64,000 bases of DNA from Aestuariimicrobium sp. p3-SID1156 (lineage in GTDB: Bacteria; Actinomycetota; Actinomycetes; Propionibacteriales; Propionibacteriaceae), in NCBI RefSeq assembly GCF_025144225.1, contig NZ_JALXXB010000011.1, positions 11,299 to 75,298 on the forward strand, given 5' to 3'. The position numbers and the translations under genes were made by a program. Positions 1-8,590 of this stretch are shown in pieces (the first letter of the stretch is position 1; each line of letters begins with the position of its first letter). A model generated the notes under the pieces. The model saw only the letters and a program-made list of their open reading frames with translations, was not told the origin of the DNA and did no database searches.

Positions 1-458
1 CGTCACGCTCCAGGCAGTCCGCGATCTGGTCATAGATCTCATCGGCGGTCTCCGCGGAGGGCCGCACCCGGACGCCGAAGACATCGTGGAACTCCGATTC
101 GAACCAGAACTGGACCGGGGTGCCGCGCAGAACCTTCCAGTTCTCGCAGAGTGCGCGAAAGCCCGCCCGCGACTGTTCCTCACCCATCGGGCTACCGACC
201 GGGACGCCCAGCTCGGCCAGGTCCACCCCGGCCGCGGAGTGCAGCATCCGGTTGGTGTAGTGGTCGGGGGTGAGCAGCAGGCTGGTCGGGTCGGAGAACG
301 GTTCGTTGTCCGCGAGCCATTCGGCCGGGACGTGGCCATGCGGGGAGATGATCGGGAGCCCCGCCACAGACCGGTACAGCTCGCGCGCGATCTCGCGGAC
401 AGCGGGCTCTGCCGGCAGCAGCCGGTCAGGATGCGGGGAGAGGGGGGCCGCTGGCATG
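1..458 (-). CDS. uxaC: uronate isomerase, N-terminal part (cut by window edge)
   Basis: The first 152 codons of a protein that runs off the left edge. The translation contains LPIISPHGHVPAEWLADN and LLLTPDHYTNRMLHSAGV-like residues, which are the N-terminal hallmarks of UxaC; the HGH histidines are metal ligands in this amidohydrolase-fold family. UxaC interconverts D-glucuronate with D-fructuronate and D-galacturonate with D-tagaturonate in the cytoplasm. The ATG at 458 has an AAGG-type ribosome site just upstream and lies only 3 bp past the lacI stop, so the two genes are almost certainly cotranscribed. The family is about 470 residues long, so roughly two thirds is outside the window. Confidence 0.9.
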
Positions 459-461
459 GAA

Positions 462-1496
462 TTACCTTTCGTTGGGAATGACTGGTGGCTGTGCGGTGGC
501 AGGTCCGGAGGACTCCCGTGGGATGAGACCCATGGGCACCACGATCGTTTCGGGGATGGAGGAGCTGCGATGGCGCAGCTGGTGGAGCAGGGCCTTCGCA
601 GCGCGTGCCCCGATCAGGCTGGGCTGGGGTGAGACCGTGGTCAGGGTGGGGCTGGTCAGCACCGAGGAGATCGAGTTGTCCACGCCGACCACCGAGACGT
701 CCTCGGGGATGCGCAGGCCCATGGCCTGTACGGCCTTCATGAAACCGATCGCCATGATGTCGTTGAAGGCGATGACGCCGGTGGTCGGGTGCGCTCGCCA
801 CTGCTCGGCCGCCTGCACGCCACCCTGCACCGAGGGCGCTCCCGGACCGGTGCGACGCAGGGGGATGCTCAGCTCGTGGCAGGCGTCCGCGGCCGCCCGC
901 CAGCGCACGCCATTGGCCCAGGAGGCCTCCGGGCCCGGGAGGTAGGTGAGGCGGCTGTGGCCGAGTTCGGCGAGGTGCTCGACCGCCCGCCGCATGCCGC
1001 GTCCGGAATCGGGAATCACGGAGGGGACGCCGGTGACGACGCGATTGGTCGCGACCACCGGCACGATCTTCACCACCTGGTTGATCGCCGAATCGGTGAG
1101 CCGGGAGGCCGACAGCGCGAGACCGTCCACCAGCGGCAGGATGGACTGGATCTGGTCGTACTCGGCCTGCCCGTCCTCCTGGGTGTCCAGGAGCAGGACG
1201 GTGTAGCCCGCCTCGCTGGCCTCCTGCTGGAAGCCCCGCATGATGTGGGCGTAGACCGGGTTGGTGATGTCGGCCACCACCAGCGCCAGAGAATGCTTCG
1301 TCACGCCGATCTCCGGGGCGATGACCGGCTTGCTGCGGTAGCCCAGCCGGGCGGCGGTCTCGCGGATCAGCGCCGAGGTCTGGGTATTGACCCGCCCGGG
1401 GCGGGAGAAGGTGCGCGACACCGTCGAGGGCGAGACTCCGGCGGCCTCCGCCACGTCGTAGATGGTCACCTGCTTGCGCCGCTTCGGTGCGGTCAT
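462..1496 (-). CDS. LacI-family transcriptional regulator
   Basis: 344 residues. The N-terminus (about residues 9-55) is a classic LacI helix-turn-helix: VTIYDVAEAAGVSPSTVSRT followed by a hinge region. Residues 60-330 match the periplasmic-binding-protein-like effector domain, with the typical LVVADITNPVYA and GVIAFNDIMAIGF segments. The ATG at 1496 overlaps the larC stop as ATGA, so it is translationally coupled to larC and sits directly upstream of uxaC. By context it probably senses a uronate or a uronate-derived sugar acid and controls this locus; the ligand is inference. A candidate operator lies upstream of larA. Confidence 0.9.
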   Translation of the reverse strand: MTAPKRRKQVTIYDVAEAAGVSPSTVSRTFSRPGRVNTQTSALIRETAARLGYRSKPVIAPEIGVTKHSLALVVADITNPVYAHIMRGFQQEASEAGYTVLLLDTQEDGQAEYDQIQSILPLVDGLALSASRLTDSAINQVVKIVPVVATNRVVTGVPSVIPDSGRGMRRAVEHLAELGHSRLTYLPGPEASWANGVRWRAAADACHELSIPLRRTGPGAPSVQGGVQAAEQWRAHPTTGVIAFNDIMAIGFMKAVQAMGLRIPEDVSVVGVDNSISSVLTSPTLTTVSPQPSLIGARAAKALLHQLRHRSSSIPETIVVPMGLIPRESSGPATAQPPVIPNER

Positions 1497-2836
1497 GACC
1501 CCTGGCCCCCGTCGGTGGTGGGCCAGGGCGCCCCGGGACGCAACCCCGCCGCCCAGGCGGCAGCATTCGCACGGGCCAGGGCGTAGCGCTGTGGCTGGGA
1601 CTGTGCGGTGGCGACAGCGGCGACGTCGACGAACTCGGGGGTCGCCTGCTGGATTCGGGCCCCGTCGCCGGAGACCTTGATGCGGACCCGGTGACCGTCG
1701 AGGTCGACCGGCACCCAGGCCCTGTCCAGGACGTGGCGGTGTGCGGGCTGGGCGATGCGGACCCCAATGGTGGACGTGTGCTCGACCATCGCGCGGGCCA
1801 CGGCCTCGGCGGTGGCCGGGGCGACGAGCGCGGTGACGGTGTGGGCGGGGCGACCCTTCTTCATGATGATCGGGGTCAGCCAGGCGTCGACGGCGCCGGC
1901 CTGCAGCAGGCGATCGAGGACGTCGGGCCAGAGCCGCGGGTCGAGGTCGTCCACATTGGCCGAGACCTCTGCGACCTCGTGGGGGCCGGGGGCCGTGGCT
2001 TCTGCGGCGGGTGGGGTGCCGAGGACCACCCGGACCACCCCGGGGCGGTCCTGGCGGAGGCGGCTCCCGGCGCCGGTGCCGATCGATTCGACGGTGAGCG
2101 GGGGGAGCGCCTCGACGGTGTCGCACAGGGCGCGGATGAGGGCCATGCCGGTGGGGGTGGTGAGCTCGCCGGCCTCCGGTGGGCCGCCGGACTCGACCTG
2201 CCAGCCGCGGGCCAGTTCGATCACGGCCGGTGGAGGCACGGACAGCACCCCGTGCTGGGTGGTGATGGTACCGGTGCCGACGGCGACCACAGAACTGGAG
2301 CCCCGGCCGACTCCGAGCGTCCGGGCGGCCTCGGCGACACCCACAATGTCGCCGATGGAGTCGAGGGCGCCGACCTCGTGGAAGTGGACTGCCTCGACGC
2401 TGGTGCCGTGCGCGGCAGCCTCGGCCTGGGCGATGGCGGTGAAGGCCGTGAGAGCCAGTGCGCTGGTCACCTCCGGGACGCCCTCGGCGTGCAGCAACTC
2501 GGCCACGTCGCTGAGGTGGCGAGTCGGCGGATGGGGCTCGTCGGCGATCACGTCGACCTTGAGGGCACGAAAGGGTCCGCGCATCACCTGACGGGTCTGG
2601 AGGTGGAGGGCTCCGGGAGCGACCAGCTCGAGGACAGCCGCCACCGACCCCGCGTCGGCGCCGGCGTCGATGAGCGCGGCGAGCAGCATGTCGCCGGCAG
2701 CGCCCTGCGAGGCGTCGATCCACAGGTGGCGGTCGGTGGGCCGGTCGGGGGCAATGGAGGTAGGTGTGATGCGTTCGCCGAGGGGGACCTGCTGGCCGTC
2801 GGCGGTGGTGAAGGAGTGGGCCGCCGGGTCATGCAT
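1493..2836 (-). CDS. larC: LarC, nickel insertion enzyme for the NPN cofactor
   Basis: 447 residues. LarC inserts nickel into the pyridinium bisthiocarboxylate mononucleotide, the last step in making the nickel-pincer nucleotide (NPN) cofactor of LarA enzymes. The N-terminus WIDASQGAAGDMLLAALI is the family signature, followed by VHFHEVGALDSIGDIVG with its conserved His and Asp residues. In Lactiplantibacillus plantarum larC is split and joined by programmed frameshifting; here it is one continuous frame. ATG at 2836 chosen because it overlaps the larB end by 8 bp and a GGAG ribosome site precedes it. It ends in an ATGA overlap with lacI. Confidence 0.92.
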   Translation of the reverse strand: MHDPAAHSFTTADGQQVPLGERITPTSIAPDRPTDRHLWIDASQGAAGDMLLAALIDAGADAGSVAAVLELVAPGALHLQTRQVMRGPFRALKVDVIADEPHPPTRHLSDVAELLHAEGVPEVTSALALTAFTAIAQAEAAAHGTSVEAVHFHEVGALDSIGDIVGVAEAARTLGVGRGSSSVVAVGTGTITTQHGVLSVPPPAVIELARGWQVESGGPPEAGELTTPTGMALIRALCDTVEALPPLTVESIGTGAGSRLRQDRPGVVRVVLGTPPAAEATAPGPHEVAEVSANVDDLDPRLWPDVLDRLLQAGAVDAWLTPIIMKKGRPAHTVTALVAPATAEAVARAMVEHTSTIGVRIAQPAHRHVLDRAWVPVDLDGHRVRIKVSGDGARIQQATPEFVDVAAVATAQSQPQRYALARANAAAWAAGLRPGAPWPTTDGGQGS

Positions 2837-3503
2837 GGTGGCTCCTGGGGGCCGCGATCTGGGCGGCGAGGTGGCCGGCACCGTAGCCGTTGTCGATGTT
2901 GACCACGCCCACCCCGGGGGCGCAGGAATTGAGCATGGACAGGAGTGCCGAGACGCCCTCGAAGGCGGCGCCGTAGCCCACTGACGTGGGGACCGCGACC
3001 AACGGGCAGCTGACCAGACCGGCGACGACGGGCACCAGGGCGGCGTCCATGCCGGCGACCACGACGATGACCTCGGCGCTGCGCAGGTCCTCGACCCGGG
3101 ACAGGATGCGGTGCAGCCCGGCCACGCCGACATCGACGATCTCGGTGACCTCCCGACCCAGGTAGCGGGCAGTGTGGGCCGCCTCGCGGGCCACCGGCAG
3201 GTCGGAGGTGCCCGCGCAGACGACGGTCACCCGGCCACCGGTGGTCGTGGGCGGCTCGGCGGGCCAGGCCGCGAGGCCGGCGGTGTGATCGATGAAGGGG
3301 GAGTCGAGCTCCTGGCCGAGGGCGTCCAACTGCTGGGCGGAGGCGCGGGTGAACAAGACGGTGCCCAGCGGGCTGTCGGCGTCCCTGGCCTTGTCAGCCC
3401 AGGCATGGGCGATGGCACGGACCTGCTCGACGGACTTGCCGGGGCAGAAGACGGCTTCGGGGTAGCCGCGGCGCTGGAAGCGGTCGAAGTCGAGGGTGAA
3501 CAT
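2829..3503 (-). CDS. larB: LarB, pyridinium-3,5-biscarboxylate mononucleotide synthase
   Basis: 224 residues from ATG 3503 (a GTG immediately before it, at 3506, is an alternative). LarB carboxylates and hydrolyses nicotinic acid adenine dinucleotide, the first step of NPN cofactor synthesis. The C-terminal half is PurE-like: VTVVCAGTSDLPVAREAA, VVVAGMDAALVPVVAGLV and VAVPTSVGYGAAF correspond to the AIR-carboxylase-like nucleotide and CO2 site. The start overlaps the larE stop as TGATG, and the end overlaps larC, so the three lar genes form one coupled unit. Confidence 0.92.
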   Translation of the reverse strand: MFTLDFDRFQRRGYPEAVFCPGKSVEQVRAIAHAWADKARDADSPLGTVLFTRASAQQLDALGQELDSPFIDHTAGLAAWPAEPPTTTGGRVTVVCAGTSDLPVAREAAHTARYLGREVTEIVDVGVAGLHRILSRVEDLRSAEVIVVVAGMDAALVPVVAGLVSCPLVAVPTSVGYGAAFEGVSALLSMLNSCAPGVGVVNIDNGYGAGHLAAQIAAPRSHHA

Positions 3504-4378
3504 CACTGCGCCTCCGGCTGGCGGGACAGGAGGGAGAGGGTGAAGGTCCCGGACTGGATGCCGGCCAGGTCGAGGGTGGCGTGGTCGAATCCGGCGGCGC
3601 GGACCCGCTGGAGCAATTCCTGACGGCGGGTCGCGTCGCTGAGGAGGGCGAACTCGTCGATCGGCACCTCGATGCGCGCGATCGAGCCATGGTGGCGGAC
3701 GCGGCAGTCGGAGAAACCGGCGTCCAGCACGGCGTCCTCAGCCAGGTCGATGGCGTGGAGCTTGTCGGCGGTCACCTCCTGGCCATGCGGGATGCGGCTG
3801 GCCAGGCAGGGGGCGGCAGGCTTGAGGGCGCTGGCCAGGCCCAGCGCGGAGGCGATGGCGCGCACCTGGGCCTTGCTGGCTCCGGCGGCGGCCAGGGGAT
3901 GCAGTACCCGGTGCTCGGCGGCAGCCCGACTTCCGGGCCGGTCGGGGCGCTGGCGGTCATCAGCATTCTCGCCGTAGGCGATGGCGTCGAGCCCAAACTC
4001 CCGGACGACGCGGGTGCCAAGGATGGTGAAGAGCTCGTCCTTGCAGTGGTAGCAGCGGTCCACCGGGTTCCTGGCATAGGAGGGATTGGACAGCTCGTCG
4101 GTGGCGACCTCCATCAGCGGCAGGCCGAGCTGGTCGGCCTGCCGGTGGGCAAGGCGCCGCTCACGCCGGGCCAGTGACGGGGAGACCCCCAGCAGCAGCA
4201 CGGTGTTCTGCGCCCCGATTGCGCGCGAGACCAGGGCAGCGAGCACCGTCGAATCGACTCCACCGGAGTAGGCCACACCCACCCGCCCGGCTCCGGCGTC
4301 CACCAGGTCACGCGCGACGGCGTCGGCGATGGCCTGGAGTTCGCTGGGGAGCGGGGTGTCGACTTCGATCTGCTGCAT
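3503..4378 (-). CDS. larE: LarE, sacrificial sulfur transferase for NPN cofactor
   Basis: 291 residues. LarE activates the two carboxylates of the LarB product with ATP and replaces them with thiocarboxylates. The PP-loop SGGVDS is at residues 38-43 and the CYHCK motif at 109-113. A single cysteine sits in the PCLASR motif (Cys191), equivalent to the cysteine that L. plantarum LarE sacrifices, by conversion to dehydroalanine, as sulfur donor. This argues for the sacrificial one-cysteine type rather than the iron-sulfur-cluster type, although that assignment is by motif only. It is the first gene of the larE-larB-larC-lacI-uxaC run. Confidence 0.92.
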   Translation of the reverse strand: MQQIEVDTPLPSELQAIADAVARDLVDAGAGRVGVAYSGGVDSTVLAALVSRAIGAQNTVLLLGVSPSLARRERRLAHRQADQLGLPLMEVATDELSNPSYARNPVDRCYHCKDELFTILGTRVVREFGLDAIAYGENADDRQRPDRPGSRAAAEHRVLHPLAAAGASKAQVRAIASALGLASALKPAAPCLASRIPHGQEVTADKLHAIDLAEDAVLDAGFSDCRVRHHGSIARIEVPIDEFALLSDATRRQELLQRVRAAGFDHATLDLAGIQSGTFTLSLLSRQPEAQ

Positions 4379-4507
4379 GGGATGTCCTGTCAGTTGCCCT
4401 GCTGCTCGCGCATCCTCATTGAACCTGTGGATACCGTGCCACAGTCTGGGTTGCCGTGAGTTGCATTCGCCGGGATCGTTCCCGAAGTCCCGGCCCTGCC
4501 TTCATCC

Positions 4508-4524
4508 CCGCCGGTCACCGGCGG
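4508..4524 (-). terminator. hairpin after larA
   Basis: CCGCCGG-TCA-CCGGCGG is a perfect 7-bp stem lying 3 bp past the larA stop in the 149-bp gap before larE. It has no T-run in the direction of larA transcription, so it may only attenuate. It could set different expression levels for larA and the cofactor genes. Confidence 0.4.
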
Positions 4525-4527
4525 CGC

Positions 4528-5835
4528 TCAGGCTGGCAGGCGTCCCCGTTGGTCGTCGGTGCGGTGCAGCAGCTCACCCGCATTCGGGACCACCAGCGTG
4601 TCCGGGTCGTCCATCAGGGCGGCGATGTCGACCTCAGCGGGGTCGAGGTAGCGCAGGTTGATCTTCTCGACGACCTCGCGGGGGATGCCGGTGGCCAGGG
4701 TGACGGTGACGCGATGGGTCTCCTCCCCGGTCTGCGGGTCGTAGTCGCCGAGCCCGCGCAGGTGCGTTGAGTGGGCGAGCTCGCCCCAGGGATGGTCCTT
4801 GAAGCGATCCCACTGGCCGACGAAGTACTGCCGGTTGTGGTAGCCGATCTCCTCGATCCCCGGGTGCATGACCGAGACCTGGGTGATGTGGGGGGCGTAG
4901 ATGATGAGCTCGCCTCCGTCAGCAACGACGGGTTCGAGCTTGTAGAAGCCCTTGGCGCCGGTCCACATGTCCTCATACATCGGGGGGATCATCGAGAGGA
5001 CGCGCTTGTAGGGGCCGGGCACGTACTTCACGTGGACCTGGCTCGAGACCTCCGCGCAGGCCTCCCAGGAGGAGCGGGTGTCACCGAAGGACAGGAACTC
5101 CAGGTCGTTGGTCCCCGGCTTCACGATCATGCCCAGCAGCAGCTTGGTGGAGGGGATCAGTTCGGCAGCAGCGTCGATCATCTGCCGCACGGGCGTGATG
5201 CCGACCGAGCCGATCATCTCGTAGCTGGTGATCAGGGCTCCCACCCAGTGGGACATGTCGATCACGTCGTGCCCGGACAGACCGGGGAAGAAGTACTTGT
5301 TGCCCCCCGAGATGCCGACCACCTCATGGGGGAGCACCGGCCCCAGCACCAGCGAGATGTCGGTGTCCACGACCAGGGAGTTCACCAGCACCGTCATCGG
5401 GCGGTCGGTCAGCCGACCCTCGGTGAGTTCGGCGATGCGTTCGGCAGGGATGGTGCCCAGGTTGGTGAAGGTTGTCTCATTTCGCCAGTCATGGTTGGTG
5501 ATGGTCCACCCGGGGTAGGTCTCCTCGAATCGACCGGGCTGGCAGCCCATCAGCTTGGCGATCGCCTCGTCGTCCATGTAGTCGTGGGTGCCCAGCGCGA
5601 TCACCACGCGGACGCCCACAGGGCGGCTCCCGAGGGCTTCGTGGATGAGCTTGGCGACCTGCGCCACGGGGGCGTGGCGGGTCCCGTCGGGGACGACCAG
5701 GGTCACCCGCCTGCCGTCGAAGTCATAGCCGCCGAGCTGGTCGAGGACGAACTCGCGGATCTGGCCTTCGGTCAGGGTCTGGTTCGGTCCGCCGACGGAG
5801 GCGGCGTCCTCGAGCCCCGGGTAGAGGGTGGTCAT
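4528..5835 (-). CDS. larA: LarA-family nickel-dependent 2-hydroxyacid racemase/epimerase
   Basis: 435 residues, normal family length. LarA enzymes racemise or epimerise 2-hydroxyacids by hydride transfer on the nickel-pincer nucleotide. Key residues are visible: PDGTR at 49-53, His84 and His170 (the catalytic pair, H108/H174 of L. plantarum LarA), Lys180 in GGNKYFFPG (the covalent cofactor lysine) and His196 (nickel ligand). The spacing His170-Lys180-His196 equals that of H174-K184-H200. The family includes lactate and malate racemases and a gluconate 2-epimerase, so the substrate cannot be read from fold alone. Neighbouring uxaC and a KDG-type kinase favour a sugar acid such as mannonate/gluconate (inference). 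ATG at 5835 has a GGAGGG site about 13 bp upstream. Confidence 0.85.
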   Translation of the reverse strand: MTTLYPGLEDAASVGGPNQTLTEGQIREFVLDQLGGYDFDGRRVTLVVPDGTRHAPVAQVAKLIHEALGSRPVGVRVVIALGTHDYMDDEAIAKLMGCQPGRFEETYPGWTITNHDWRNETTFTNLGTIPAERIAELTEGRLTDRPMTVLVNSLVVDTDISLVLGPVLPHEVVGISGGNKYFFPGLSGHDVIDMSHWVGALITSYEMIGSVGITPVRQMIDAAAELIPSTKLLLGMIVKPGTNDLEFLSFGDTRSSWEACAEVSSQVHVKYVPGPYKRVLSMIPPMYEDMWTGAKGFYKLEPVVADGGELIIYAPHITQVSVMHPGIEEIGYHNRQYFVGQWDRFKDHPWGELAHSTHLRGLGDYDPQTGEETHRVTVTLATGIPREVVEKINLRYLDPAEVDIAALMDDPDTLVVPNAGELLHRTDDQRGRLPA

Positions 5836-5877
5836 GCCGATGAAGGTACCCTCCGCCGACCTCTGGGCGTCTCGGAT

Positions 5878-5889
5878 GCAGCCGGTTGC
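5878..5889. promoter_or_regulatory. candidate LacI-family operator
   Basis: GCAG-CCGG-TTGC is a near-perfect dyad centred on CCGG, as many LacI-family operators are, 43 bp upstream of the larA start. One mismatch between the arms. I found no equivalent copy upstream of larE or the kinase, so this is a weak call. Confidence 0.25.
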
Positions 5890-5964
5890 CATGGATTGCA
5901 GCGGTGCTCGTCCGCCGCCCCAGCCCCCGCCCCTCGCCGCCCCAGCCCCCGCCGCCCCCTTCAG

Positions 5965-6032
5965 CGTTTGCACGCTTCTCATGCCCCTGCCTGCGACATA
6001 TCGCGGGCAGGAACATGAATGACGTGCAAACG
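5965..6032. repeat. REP-like nested palindrome, copy 1
   Basis: A 68-bp element between larA and the kinase. Outer arms CGTTTGCACG and CGTGCAAACG are exact reverse complements. Inside are CATG, CCTGCC/GGCAGG and a central GCGA-CATA-TCGC, so almost the whole element can fold into one hairpin. There is no T-run. A related, partly degraded copy lies at 57589-57634. Just left of it (about 5913-5960) are two short C-rich direct repeats built on CCGCCCCAGCCCCCGCC. Confidence 0.65.
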
Positions 6033-6055
6033 CGGGAAGGCGGGCGGGGAGAACG

Positions 6056-7129
6056 TCAGCGTTGGACGCGGGCGTTGCCCTCCCAGATCGACCAGACCTG
6101 GGCCTCGTCGGCGGGGGCGGCGTAGTCGTGCAGCGAGGTGGCGGCCAGCGCACCGGTCGCCCAGCCGAACTGCATGCACTGCTCGGTCGTCCAGCCGCGC
6201 AGCAGGCCGTAGAGGACGCCGCCGATGCTGCCGTCCCCACCGCCGATGCGGTCGAGGACGTCGATTTCGCGTAGCGGAGCGACGTTGAAGTCGCCCTCGC
6301 CCCACAGGATCATGCCCCAGCGGTGCTGGTTGGCCGAGACCACCTCACGCAGGGAGGTGCCGATGTAGTGGGTCTGGGGGAAGGCCTCGCGGATGCGTCC
6401 GATCATCTCCTTGAAGAGCTCGGTCTCCTCCTCGATGCTCTTGCCACCGGCCTCGGGGCCCTGGATGCCCAGGCAGAGCTGGAAGTCCTCCTCGTTGCCG
6501 TAGAGGATGTCGCAGAGTTCGGCGATGTCGTGGAAGGCCTGGCGCAGCTCCTCCTCGCGTCCCTGCCAGAAGGACTTGCGGTAGTTGAGGTCGAAGCTGA
6601 TCACGGTGCCGTGCTCGCGGGCCGTGCGGGCCAGTTCGACGCAGAAGGTCGAGGTCTTCGGTGACAGCGCCGCCACCAGCCCCGACAGGTGCAGGATCTT
6701 CACACCCTCCTCGCCGAAGAGGAGCTCCAGGTCGTAGTCGGCGATGTCCAGGTCGAGGCCGACCTCACCGCTGCGGTCGTTCCAGACGCGCGGAGCCCGA
6801 CCGCCGTAGCCGGAGTCGGCGATGTTGAACTGGTGGCGATTGCCCCAGGCATCCCCTTGGGGAACATCCGGTCCCTCGTAGTCCATGCCACGGGCGCGCA
6901 GGTCGGCCTTGATGAAGGCCGAGATGGGGGAGTCCTCCACGAAGCGGGTCAACACCTTGACCGGCAGACCCAGGTGGGAAGGGATGGAGGCCACATTCGA
7001 CTCCGCCGACGTGGCCTGCATCAGGTAACGGTTCGAGGTGTGCACCGGCTGCCGGTTCTCCGGGGTGATCCGCACCCCCATGGACGTCGGAACCACCAGT
7101 GCCCACCGGGCATCGTCACGAAGCTTCAT
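6056..7129 (-). CDS. PfkB-family sugar kinase, 2-keto-3-deoxygluconate kinase-like
   Basis: 357 residues of the ribokinase/PfkB fold. The C-terminal signature reads DRIGGGDGSIGGVLYG, holding the catalytic Asp in GGGD. The GGGD form rather than GAGD is common in 2-dehydro-3-deoxygluconate (KDG) kinases. FDLNYRKSFW is the conserved mid-domain strand. KDG kinase is the shared last kinase step of glucuronate and galacturonate breakdown, which fits uxaC nearby. It lies 220 bp upstream of larA on the same strand, with the palindromic repeat between. The function is a family-level inference; another sugar-acid kinase is possible. Confidence 0.75.
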   Translation of the reverse strand: MKLRDDARWALVVPTSMGVRITPENRQPVHTSNRYLMQATSAESNVASIPSHLGLPVKVLTRFVEDSPISAFIKADLRARGMDYEGPDVPQGDAWGNRHQFNIADSGYGGRAPRVWNDRSGEVGLDLDIADYDLELLFGEEGVKILHLSGLVAALSPKTSTFCVELARTAREHGTVISFDLNYRKSFWQGREEELRQAFHDIAELCDILYGNEEDFQLCLGIQGPEAGGKSIEEETELFKEMIGRIREAFPQTHYIGTSLREVVSANQHRWGMILWGEGDFNVAPLREIDVLDRIGGGDGSIGGVLYGLLRGWTTEQCMQFGWATGALAATSLHDYAAPADEAQVWSIWEGNARVQR

Positions 7130-7171: not shown

Positions 7172-8590
7172 TCAGTCCTCATCACGGTACATGCCGGGCG
7201 CATCCAGCACGAGGTTGGTACCCCCGGCGGCATCGGACAACTCGTGGGGGGCCAACCAGTGGGCGAGGTGGTAGACCGCGATGGTGACGATCGTCCCAAG
7301 CGCGATGCCGCCCAGGGTGAAGTCCTTGGAGAACGTCAGCGACACATTGCCGATGCCGATGATGATCCCTGCGGCAGCCGGCACCAGGTTGACCGGGTTG
7401 CCGAAGTCGACGTTGTTCTCCTTCCAGATCTTGGCGCCGAGCAGGCCGATCATGCCGTAGAGCACGACGGTGATCCCGCCCAGCACTCCGCCGGGGGTGG
7501 CCGAGACGATGGCGCCGAACTTGGGGGAGAGCCCGAACAGGATTGCCACCACCGCGGCGACCACATAGGCGGCCGTTGAATAGACCCGGGTTGCCGCCAT
7601 GACGCCGATGTTCTCCGCATAGGTGGTGGTCGGCCCGGCGCCCGCCAGTGAGGCGATGGTCGAGGTGGCGCCGTCGGCGGCGATGGCGGTGCCCATCTGC
7701 TGGTCCAGGTTGTGGCCGGTCATCTCCGCAACGGCCTTGACGTGCCCGGTGTTCTCGGCGATCAGCGCGATCACCACCGGGAGCGCCAACAGGATGAACG
7801 CGGGGTGGAAAGCAGGCCAGTGGAAGCCGACCACATTGGTCCTGGCGCCCAGCGCCCAGGTGTCCAGGTTGGTCACCGGCGGCAGCCCGAACCAGTCGGC
7901 TTGGCGGACGCCGCTCCAGTCGACGCGGTAGCCGGTCTGGGTCTGACCGTGGACGGTCGTGGTCAGCGGCCCGAGGACCCGGTCGAGCACCGCACTGAAC
8001 AGGTAGCCCAGGACCAGCGACAGGAAGATCGCGATGCGTCCCAGAAAGCCGCGCAGGGCGACCGACAGGATCACGACCACCACCATCACGATCAGCGCGG
8101 TCCACTGGTCACGGGGCCAGTACTCCGCAGCAACGACGGGGGCCAGGTTGAAACCGATCAACATCACCACCGCCCCGGTCACCACCGGCGGCAGCGCGCG
8201 ATGGATCACCTGCGCCCCCGCGAAGTGGATCACCAGGCCGACCATGAACAGGGCCAGCCCGACGCAGAGCAGGGCGCCGGTGAGGTCATTGGGCTTGCCA
8301 CCATGGGCGTAGATCGTGGTCGCCACGCCCACGAAGGACGCCGAGGAACCCAGGTAGCTGGGAATCCTGTTCCGCGTGGCCGCCAGGAAGGCGAGGGTCG
8401 CCAAACCGCTCATCATCACCGCGAGCTGCGGGTTCAGCCCCATCAGCAGAGGGAAGACGAAGGTGGCGCCGAACATGGCCACCACATGCTGGGCGCCCAG
8501 GCCGATGGTCTTGCCCCACCCCAGTCGTTCATCAGGGGCGACGACTGCGCCCGGCTCGAGGGTCCCGTTGTTGTGGAGCTTCCAGATCAC
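7172..8590 (-). CDS. NCS2-family nucleobase permease (uracil/xanthine type)
   Basis: 472 residues, strongly hydrophobic, with about 12-14 membrane segments. LGAQHVVAMFGATFVFPLLMG near residue 30 and the VIALIAENTGHVKAV segment with its conserved Glu (IAENTGH) are characteristic of UraA-type uracil:proton symporters. It sits 42 bp upstream of the kinase on the same strand, so it may share its transcript, yet nucleobase uptake has no obvious link to uronate use. The family also carries xanthine and other substrates, so the exact cargo is open. Confidence 0.85.
   Translation of the reverse strand: MIWKLHNNGTLEPGAVVAPDERLGWGKTIGLGAQHVVAMFGATFVFPLLMGLNPQLAVMMSGLATLAFLAATRNRIPSYLGSSASFVGVATTIYAHGGKPNDLTGALLCVGLALFMVGLVIHFAGAQVIHRALPPVVTGAVVMLIGFNLAPVVAAEYWPRDQWTALIVMVVVVILSVALRGFLGRIAIFLSLVLGYLFSAVLDRVLGPLTTTVHGQTQTGYRVDWSGVRQADWFGLPPVTNLDTWALGARTNVVGFHWPAFHPAFILLALPVVIALIAENTGHVKAVAEMTGHNLDQQMGTAIAADGATSTIASLAGAGPTTTYAENIGVMAATRVYSTAAYVVAAVVAILFGLSPKFGAIVSATPGGVLGGITVVLYGMIGLLGAKIWKENNVDFGNPVNLVPAAAGIIIGIGNVSLTFSKDFTLGGIALGTIVTIAVYHLAHWLAPHELSDAAGGTNLVLDAPGMYRDED

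Follow-up and report, generated by a model that had tools for sequence, protein, structure and literature searches.

The first 7,129 nucleotides of a 64,000-nucleotide stretch of the Aestuariimicrobium sp. p3-SID1156 genome (contig NZ_JALXXB010000011.1; hereafter, the window) carry a cluster of the genes pfkB, larA, larE, larB, larC, lacI, and uxaC. We propose, with a probability of roughly 0.8, that this cluster encodes the middle part of a D-glucuronate route that is independent of the Entner-Doudoroff pathway and passes through LarA and gluconate. The proposal is based on the observed gene content, the residues of LarA, conserved linkage in relatives, co-occurrence among genomes, and a shared upstream repeat. 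The uxuB and gnd genes would lie elsewhere in the source genome. A first-pass annotation of the window had named the same gene set, which open reading frames and family scores confirm.

In the proposed route, uronate isomerase (UxaC) would convert D-glucuronate to D-fructuronate, and a UxuB-type reductase would reduce D-fructuronate to D-mannonate; uxuB is the next gene in relatives and would fall beyond the window edge. LarB, LarE, and LarC would build the nickel-pincer nucleotide (NPN) carried by LarA. LarA would abstract the C2 hydride, leaving a 2-keto acid bound in the site, and return it from the other face to give D-gluconate, a mechanism adopted from that published for LarA1. The PfkB kinase would phosphorylate D-gluconate to 6-phosphogluconate, and 6-phosphogluconate dehydrogenase (Gnd) would oxidatively decarboxylate it to ribulose-5-phosphate. 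A beta-glucuronidase and a glucuronide-type transporter, both found in relatives, would complete the route. When the carbons are followed through the known reactions, C6 of glucuronate ends up as C1 of mannonate, and C5 as C2. Therefore, LarA would invert the original C5, and Gnd would release what was C6 as CO2. Overall, one ATP would be spent per ribulose-5-phosphate formed, and the one reduction would balance the one oxidation, a redox balance that the abstract of PMC6978723 states for an analogous route.

LarA (4528–5835, minus strand; Pfam Lar_N 66 bits, cut-off 23.3) is predicted to be an NPN-dependent D-mannonate/D-gluconate 2-epimerase of the GntE type. It has D50, R53, H84, H170, K180, H196, and K295, which are all of the catalytic and cofactor residues; the equivalents listed for LarA1 are D72, R75, H108, H174, K184, H200, and K298 (PMC7583248). 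H84, H170, K180, and H196 had been recognized with the same numbering in the first-pass annotation. At the specificity positions, F, F, W, and E/Q mark lactate racemases, and E, V, A, and H mark gluconate 2-epimerases (PMC11770544). The window LarA has E171, V172, A354, and H355 at the positions of F175, F176, W358, and T359 of LarA1, which is the complete GntE set; A354 and H355 were placed via an alignment with GntE2. These 11 residues are identical in 53 of 53 complete LarA matches above 250 bits among the loci read, a count in which one gene appears twice (L014 and L109) and the broken gene of L032 shows only part of the set. The closest chain in the PDB (phmmer) is 4NAR, GntE2 of Thermotoga maritima (PMC7583248), with 194 bits, compared with 32 bits for the lactate racemase 2YJG and 22 bits for Mar2. 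The top NCBIfam model is NF052594, a putative hexonate epimerase (group 18), at 165 bits, which is below its cut-off of 500. An assignment as lactate racemase was rejected; the score on NF033504 is 52 bits against a cut-off of 460, and the loop has E171-V172 instead of the bulky FF. The site residues and the nearest structure thus support the earlier claim that the enzyme is a C2 sugar-acid epimerase and not a lactate racemase.

A LarA tree of 86 rows, rooted on LarA1 (a piece) and two other distant rows, placed the window LarA among proteins of Propionibacteriaceae and Actinomycetaceae. GntE2 and the piece of LarA1 were the only characterized homologues in it. GntE2, and not LarA1, is on the side of the window LarA, although its branch is long and its place is uncertain. 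One row from a metagenome-assembled contig labelled Klebsiella pneumoniae (L039) groups with rows of Verrucomicrobiota and Planctomycetota, and the label looks wrong.

Co-occurrence was surveyed in 149 genomes from the family of Tessaracoccus oleiagri (G002, L004; Propionibacteriaceae) with a completeness filter of at least 90. LarA was scored as present at E < 1e-80, and eight further genomes with weak matches were counted as without it. LarA was found in 60 genomes, uxaC in 87, uxuA (mannonate dehydratase) above its cut-off in 39, a close homologue of the window kinase in 46, and the canonical gluconokinase TIGR01313 in 64. The uxaC gene is present in 59 of the 60 LarA genomes and in 28 of the 89 without LarA (Fisher p 1e-18; this and the other p values of the survey are too small because the genomes are related). 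The two genes are within 15 kb of each other in 43 genomes, and in 29 of these they are divergent within 450 bp. Two of the 60 genomes (G020 and G115) have larA in pieces. The sole larA genome without uxaC is G020 (T. massiliensis, L032 10001–11332); its larA is in three pieces and uxaC gave no match, as if the pair had been lost together.

Among the 87 genomes with uxaC, 46 have larA only, 20 have uxuA only, 13 have both, and eight have neither (p 1.5e-5). The first 25 larA genomes comprise two with a strong uxuA match (G022 and G024), three with a weak match above the cut-off (26–29 bits), one below it, and 19 with none; the controls of this search, T. maritima and Escherichia coli, were both positive. 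Seven genomes have the kinase and no LarA of the window type, and five of them (G154, G157, G158, G165, and G166) carry another LarA. This second type has about 26–30% identity to the window LarA. Its representatives in L110 and L111 have the same 11 residues, that in L112 has P for A, and larB and larE are nearby in all three; in L113, which also has the second type, the upstream repeat described below occurs at 6183. With these five genomes, of which three were read, the kinase may pair with some GntE-like LarA in up to 44 of 46 genomes, bearing in mind the fragmented larA of G020 and G115.

The PfkB kinase (6056–7129, minus strand; Pfam PfkB 80 bits, cut-off 25.8) is a predicted gluconokinase, with mannonate kinase as a possibility. 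The first-pass annotation had noted its resemblance to 2-keto-3-deoxygluconate (KDG) kinase. This resemblance stands at the level of sequence; as a function, it is disfavored by linkage and phyletic pattern. The closest PDB entry is T. maritima KDG kinase (2AFB, 102 bits), and the scores on the KDG kinase equivalogs are all below their cut-offs (NF052444 32/400, NF040938 37/400, and NF041332 92/440 bits). In the KDG kinase 1V19, G34, Y89, Y103, R105, and R167, whose positions were checked, are what we take to be functional residues. In the alignment, R105 and R167 are kept as R119 and R184, Y103 is replaced by N117, and GGAE is replaced by TSAE. TSAE, N117, R119, and R184 do not vary among the close homologues (42 of 42).

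Linkage separates the two kinds of kinase. None of 47 close copies is within 10 kb of a 2-keto-3-deoxy-6-phosphogluconate (KDPG) aldolase gene, whereas 63 of 69 distant copies (109–177 bits) are within 2 kb of one. These distant copies are therefore very likely true KDG kinases, and KDG kinase was rejected as the identity of the window kinase. KDPG aldolase was not found (E 1e-15) in 13 of the 46 kinase genomes, or in 12 if the G069 fragment is included. The kinase and the canonical gluconokinase occur together in one genome, and 45 genomes have only the kinase, 63 only the gluconokinase, and 40 neither (p 4e-13); in other words, TIGR01313 is found in 1 of 46 kinase genomes and 63 of 103 others. 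It was also above its cut-off in none of the 11 kinase genomes of the first larA set. Since the close copies are not near KDPG aldolase while the distant copies are, the kinase looks like a sugar-acid kinase making 6-phosphogluconate or its epimer. It is probably not a KDG kinase, and its linkage and phyletic pattern favor gluconate (or mannonate) as the substrate.

A direct repeat of the form GCAAY-N4-GGCAAY was found by eye in the two upstream regions of the window and then tested in relatives. One copy (GCAATCCATGGCAAC, 5885–5899, minus strand) is 50 bp before larA, and the other (GCAACTCACGGCAAC, 4450–4464, minus strand) is 72 bp before larE; both are operator-like and match GCAAYNNNNGGCAAY exactly. 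These are the two exact matches in the 64-kb window, where 0.08 are expected. The 118 loci examined, one of them the window (1.72 Mb in total), contain 80 exact sites. Of these, 76 fall in a zone that runs from 40 bp inside a cluster gene to 350 bp before its estimated start, compared with 9.2% of random positions. Position within the locus serves as the control, as the loci had been selected by these genes. The genes nearest to the sites are lacI (17), uxaC (17), gnd (14), uidA (12), larA (7), larE (4), gph (3), pfkB (1), and f17 (1). The starts preceded by an exact site are 17/80 for larA, 19/54 for uxaC, 12/33 for gnd, 9/12 for gph, and 6/9 for uidA; they are 5/40 for larE, 2/44 for pfkB, 1/46 for uxuB, 0/35 for larB, and 0/22 for larC. 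These fractions indicate that many gene copies have diverged sites or are internal to an operon. Several of the repeats are part of a longer LacI-like palindrome, GGCAACNNGTTGCC, and the LacI-family regulator of the cluster is presumed to bind the repeat. A scan for CG-centered 14-bp palindromes gave few shared sites.

The gene context of relatives is consistent with the proposed route. Loci L001–L039 were taken from a scan of genome contigs (43–89% identity), and the same pfkB is present in 10 of the 39, with gnd directly upstream on the same strand in all 10. Two further loci (L007 and L013) have gnd, and the same kinase is not in the locus. The fullest arrangement is gnd-pfkB-larA-gph-uidA-larE-larB-larC-lacI-uxaC-uxuB within about 16 kb (L128 of G048). 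In 13 of the 20 loci L150–L169, gnd is inside the larA/uxaC block with lacI and mostly with uxuB, in shuffled order. The uidA product of L009 scores as a beta-glucuronidase (PRK10150 858 bits, cut-off 544). A GPH-type transporter recurs that is above the cut-off of the gph subfamily and has 267/528 bits on the glucuronide transporter model. The gene after uxaC encodes a protein of the mannitol dehydrogenase family, and the nearest models are D-arabinitol dehydrogenase (248/600 bits) and fructuronate reductase (239/603 bits). The tie to glucuronate breakdown drawn in the first-pass annotation is supported by this conserved uronate context, as well as by the co-occurrence with uxaC, the shared repeat, and the fact that uxuA is often missing.

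Some features of these loci stand apart. A GH3 glycosidase and a partner of about 300 residues without a Pfam match are encoded beside gnd-pfkB-larA in L002, L004, L006, L009, L010, and L012, and the GH3 protein may release glucuronide. Contig C1 of G060 (L129 and L043) has two kinase-larA pairs, each about 9–10 kb from a uxaC. The proteins encoded between larB and lacI in Brachybacterium L020 (TetR, SMR efflux, and DsbA-like) look unrelated and were set aside.

In the window, the remaining genes of the cluster are also on the minus strand. The sulfur transferase of NPN synthesis is encoded by larE (3503–4378; TIGR00268 249 bits, cut-off 150), the carboxylase/hydrolase by larB (2829–3506; NF033503 266 bits, cut-off 175), and the nickel insertion protein by larC (1493–2836; TIGR00299 169 bits, cut-off 90; NF052512 122 bits, cut-off 50). 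All three cofactor genes are above their NCBIfam cut-offs and adjacent, which agrees with membership of LarA in the NPN-dependent superfamily. LarC1 and LarC2 form a single frame, unlike L016, L017, and L018, where the larC matches are split into two pieces. The gene of the LacI-family regulator (462–1496; Pfam LacI 43 bits, Peripla_BP_3 130 bits) is followed by uxaC, of which the N-terminal 152 codons (2–457; PF02614 53 bits, cut-off 25) are inside the window, cut by its edge. The partial product scores 150/387 bits on PRK02925 over a third of the protein and has 80% identity to the full UxaC of L008. The spacing of larE, larB, larC, lacI, and uxaC is −8 to +4 nt; because they overlap or abut, they form one transcription unit by layout. 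The gaps are 149 nt between larA and larE and 220 nt between pfkB and larA. The cluster is beyond chance because many of the relatives examined have these genes around their larA as well. There may be a second larA immediately beyond the left edge of the window: a LarA with 80% identity (P0028) is listed with a longest contig of 75,298 bases, which is also the length of the contig of the window LarA (P0002).

Several observations weigh against the proposed route. None of gnd, uxuB, uidA, and gph has a match within the 64-kb window, and the gene preceding pfkB, in the place of gnd, encodes an NCS2 nucleobase permease (7172–8590). If one mismatch is allowed, the repeat has three matches in the window, no more than in shuffled sequences (2.85). 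The UxuB-like protein of relatives is below every NCBIfam cut-off. The same is true of the kinase, for which the best model is NF041633, a KHG/KDPG aldolase/sugar kinase fusion (147/700 bits). The uxuA gene is also present in 13 of the 59 genomes with both larA and uxaC. An enolase-type mannonate dehydratase (ManD) may be present as well, since matches to MR_MLE were found in 19 of 19 genomes examined; among the 16 kinase genomes of these 19, however, eight have only a single match above 60 bits. KDPG aldolase is present in 33 of the 46 kinase genomes, or 34 counting the G069 fragment. On the LarA tree (58 genomes), the swap between the kinase and the gluconokinase gave 3–4 opposite and 0–1 like pairs, too few for significance (sign test p 0.125–0.625). 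Neither kinase type was found in 7 of the 60 larA genomes, and the eight Brachybacterium genomes among the first 25 larA genomes have neither the close kinase nor TIGR01313 above its cut-off. All of these 25 genomes have FGGY kinases, all below the gntK_FGGY cut-off (best 359/649 bits); therefore, an unrecognized FGGY gluconokinase is possible. Most of the kinase loci unlinked to larA have housekeeping neighbors, and the recurring ones that were scanned give no hint of function (a PucR-type regulator, an acyl transferase, ACP synthase III, pyruvate dehydrogenase E1, GatA/GatB-like and chorismate-binding proteins, and class II ribonucleotide reductase). Finally, the actinobacterial enzyme GntE1 of Corynebacterium glutamicum, which represents group 19, has a KM of 120 mM for mannonate, and its authors suggest another substrate for this group (PMC7583248).

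This high KM would be expected if the substrate of LarA were a different acid from the uronate network, for instance an aldarate (glucarate or mannarate) or another hexonate. However, the clusters of relatives contain gnd and beta-glucuronidase genes that share the repeat, the kinase and gnd are neighbors, and uxaC is followed by the gene of a fructuronate-reductase-like protein. An aldarate fits this context badly. UxaC also acts on galacturonate, which is a point in favor of another acid, and on balance we regard such a substrate as improbable. The two steps could instead occur in the reverse order, with PfkB as a mannonate kinase and LarA as a 6-phosphomannonate 2-epimerase. The product would be the same 6-phosphogluconate, which Gnd would accept in either order, and the kinase adjoins larA. 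Extracts of Lactobacillus suebicus show both activities with no genes assigned, and this order would supply them (PMC6978723). The site residues of LarA, however, are those of enzymes proven on free mannonate and gluconate. In addition, a canonical gluconokinase is found in 14 of the 21 larA genomes without the PfkB kinase, once (G107) about 100 bp behind larA, and E. coli GntK is reportedly inactive on mannonate (cited in PMC6978723). Phosphorylation before epimerization is therefore considered unlikely.

The kinase could also belong to an ordinary pathway as a KDG kinase, with mannonate dehydratase encoded elsewhere and LarA a racemase of lactate or an unrelated hydroxy acid that is present by accident. 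The similarity of the kinase to 2AFB and to the aldolase/kinase fusion, and the KDPG aldolase found in most kinase genomes, are in accord with this explanation. It is contradicted by the strong uxuA matches in just 2 of 25 larA genomes, by the contrast in KDPG aldolase linkage between close and distant kinases, and by the low lactate racemase score of a LarA without the FF loop. We consider it highly improbable and retain the route via free mannonate and gluconate.

Parts of this route have precedents. The mannonate/gluconate step goes back to a 2012 proposal by Rodionova et al. for Thermotoga (cited in PMC6978723 and PMC7583248). In 2020, the epimerase reaction was demonstrated in vitro and a uronic acid context was noted for group 19 (PMC7583248). 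GntE2 (LarAH20, 4NAR) and the window LarA share the superfamily, the catalytic and cofactor residues, and the predicted reaction, and the Thermotoga route also shares the uronate setting and the entry into the pentose phosphate pathway. However, the similarity to GntE2 is only 194 bits, and the residue after the loop Glu is V in the window LarA and S in GntE2. The kinase here is of the PfkB family, and no uxuA match was obtained in 19 of the 25 larA genomes, whereas T. maritima has one. For GntE1 (LarAH19), the available part of PMC7583248 describes no pathway and no link to a kinase or gnd. The galacturonate route of L. suebicus likewise proceeds through UxaC and UxuB reactions to 6-phosphogluconate and ribulose-5-phosphate without UxuA; it differs in the order of phosphorylation and epimerization, and its genes were not identified (PMC6978723). 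The KDG kinases 2AFB and 1V19 have the family, the GxGD motif, and both arginines in common with the window kinase and differ from it in the invariant N for Y103, in TSAE for GGAE, and in its lack of KDPG aldolase linkage. The actinobacterial cluster was not recognized among the literature matches listed, which were judged by titles and the starts of abstracts and did not cover subscription papers. The epimerase reaction and the uronate setting are already in print; the kinase, the repeat, and the reach of the system seem to be new.

A broader proposal is, in our judgment, reasonably likely. The genes would encode a complete, separately regulated, nickel-dependent pathway from uronate to pentose phosphate that needs neither mannonate dehydratase nor Entner-Doudoroff aldolase and is a main way of using glucuronate in a large family of actinobacteria. 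It would include a new PfkB gluconokinase and a single conserved operator, GGCAAC-N4-GGCAAC, that also governs gnd and beta-glucuronidase. If so, growth on glucuronides in these bacteria would need nickel and a rare cofactor, and the products from a hexuronate would be ribulose-5-phosphate, CO2, and NADPH rather than pyruvate and triose phosphate. A group of PfkB kinases that are placed near KDG kinase by sequence alone would have another substrate. The 2020 work did not settle the natural substrate of the actinobacterial GntE enzymes, and these enzymes would gain a physiological role.

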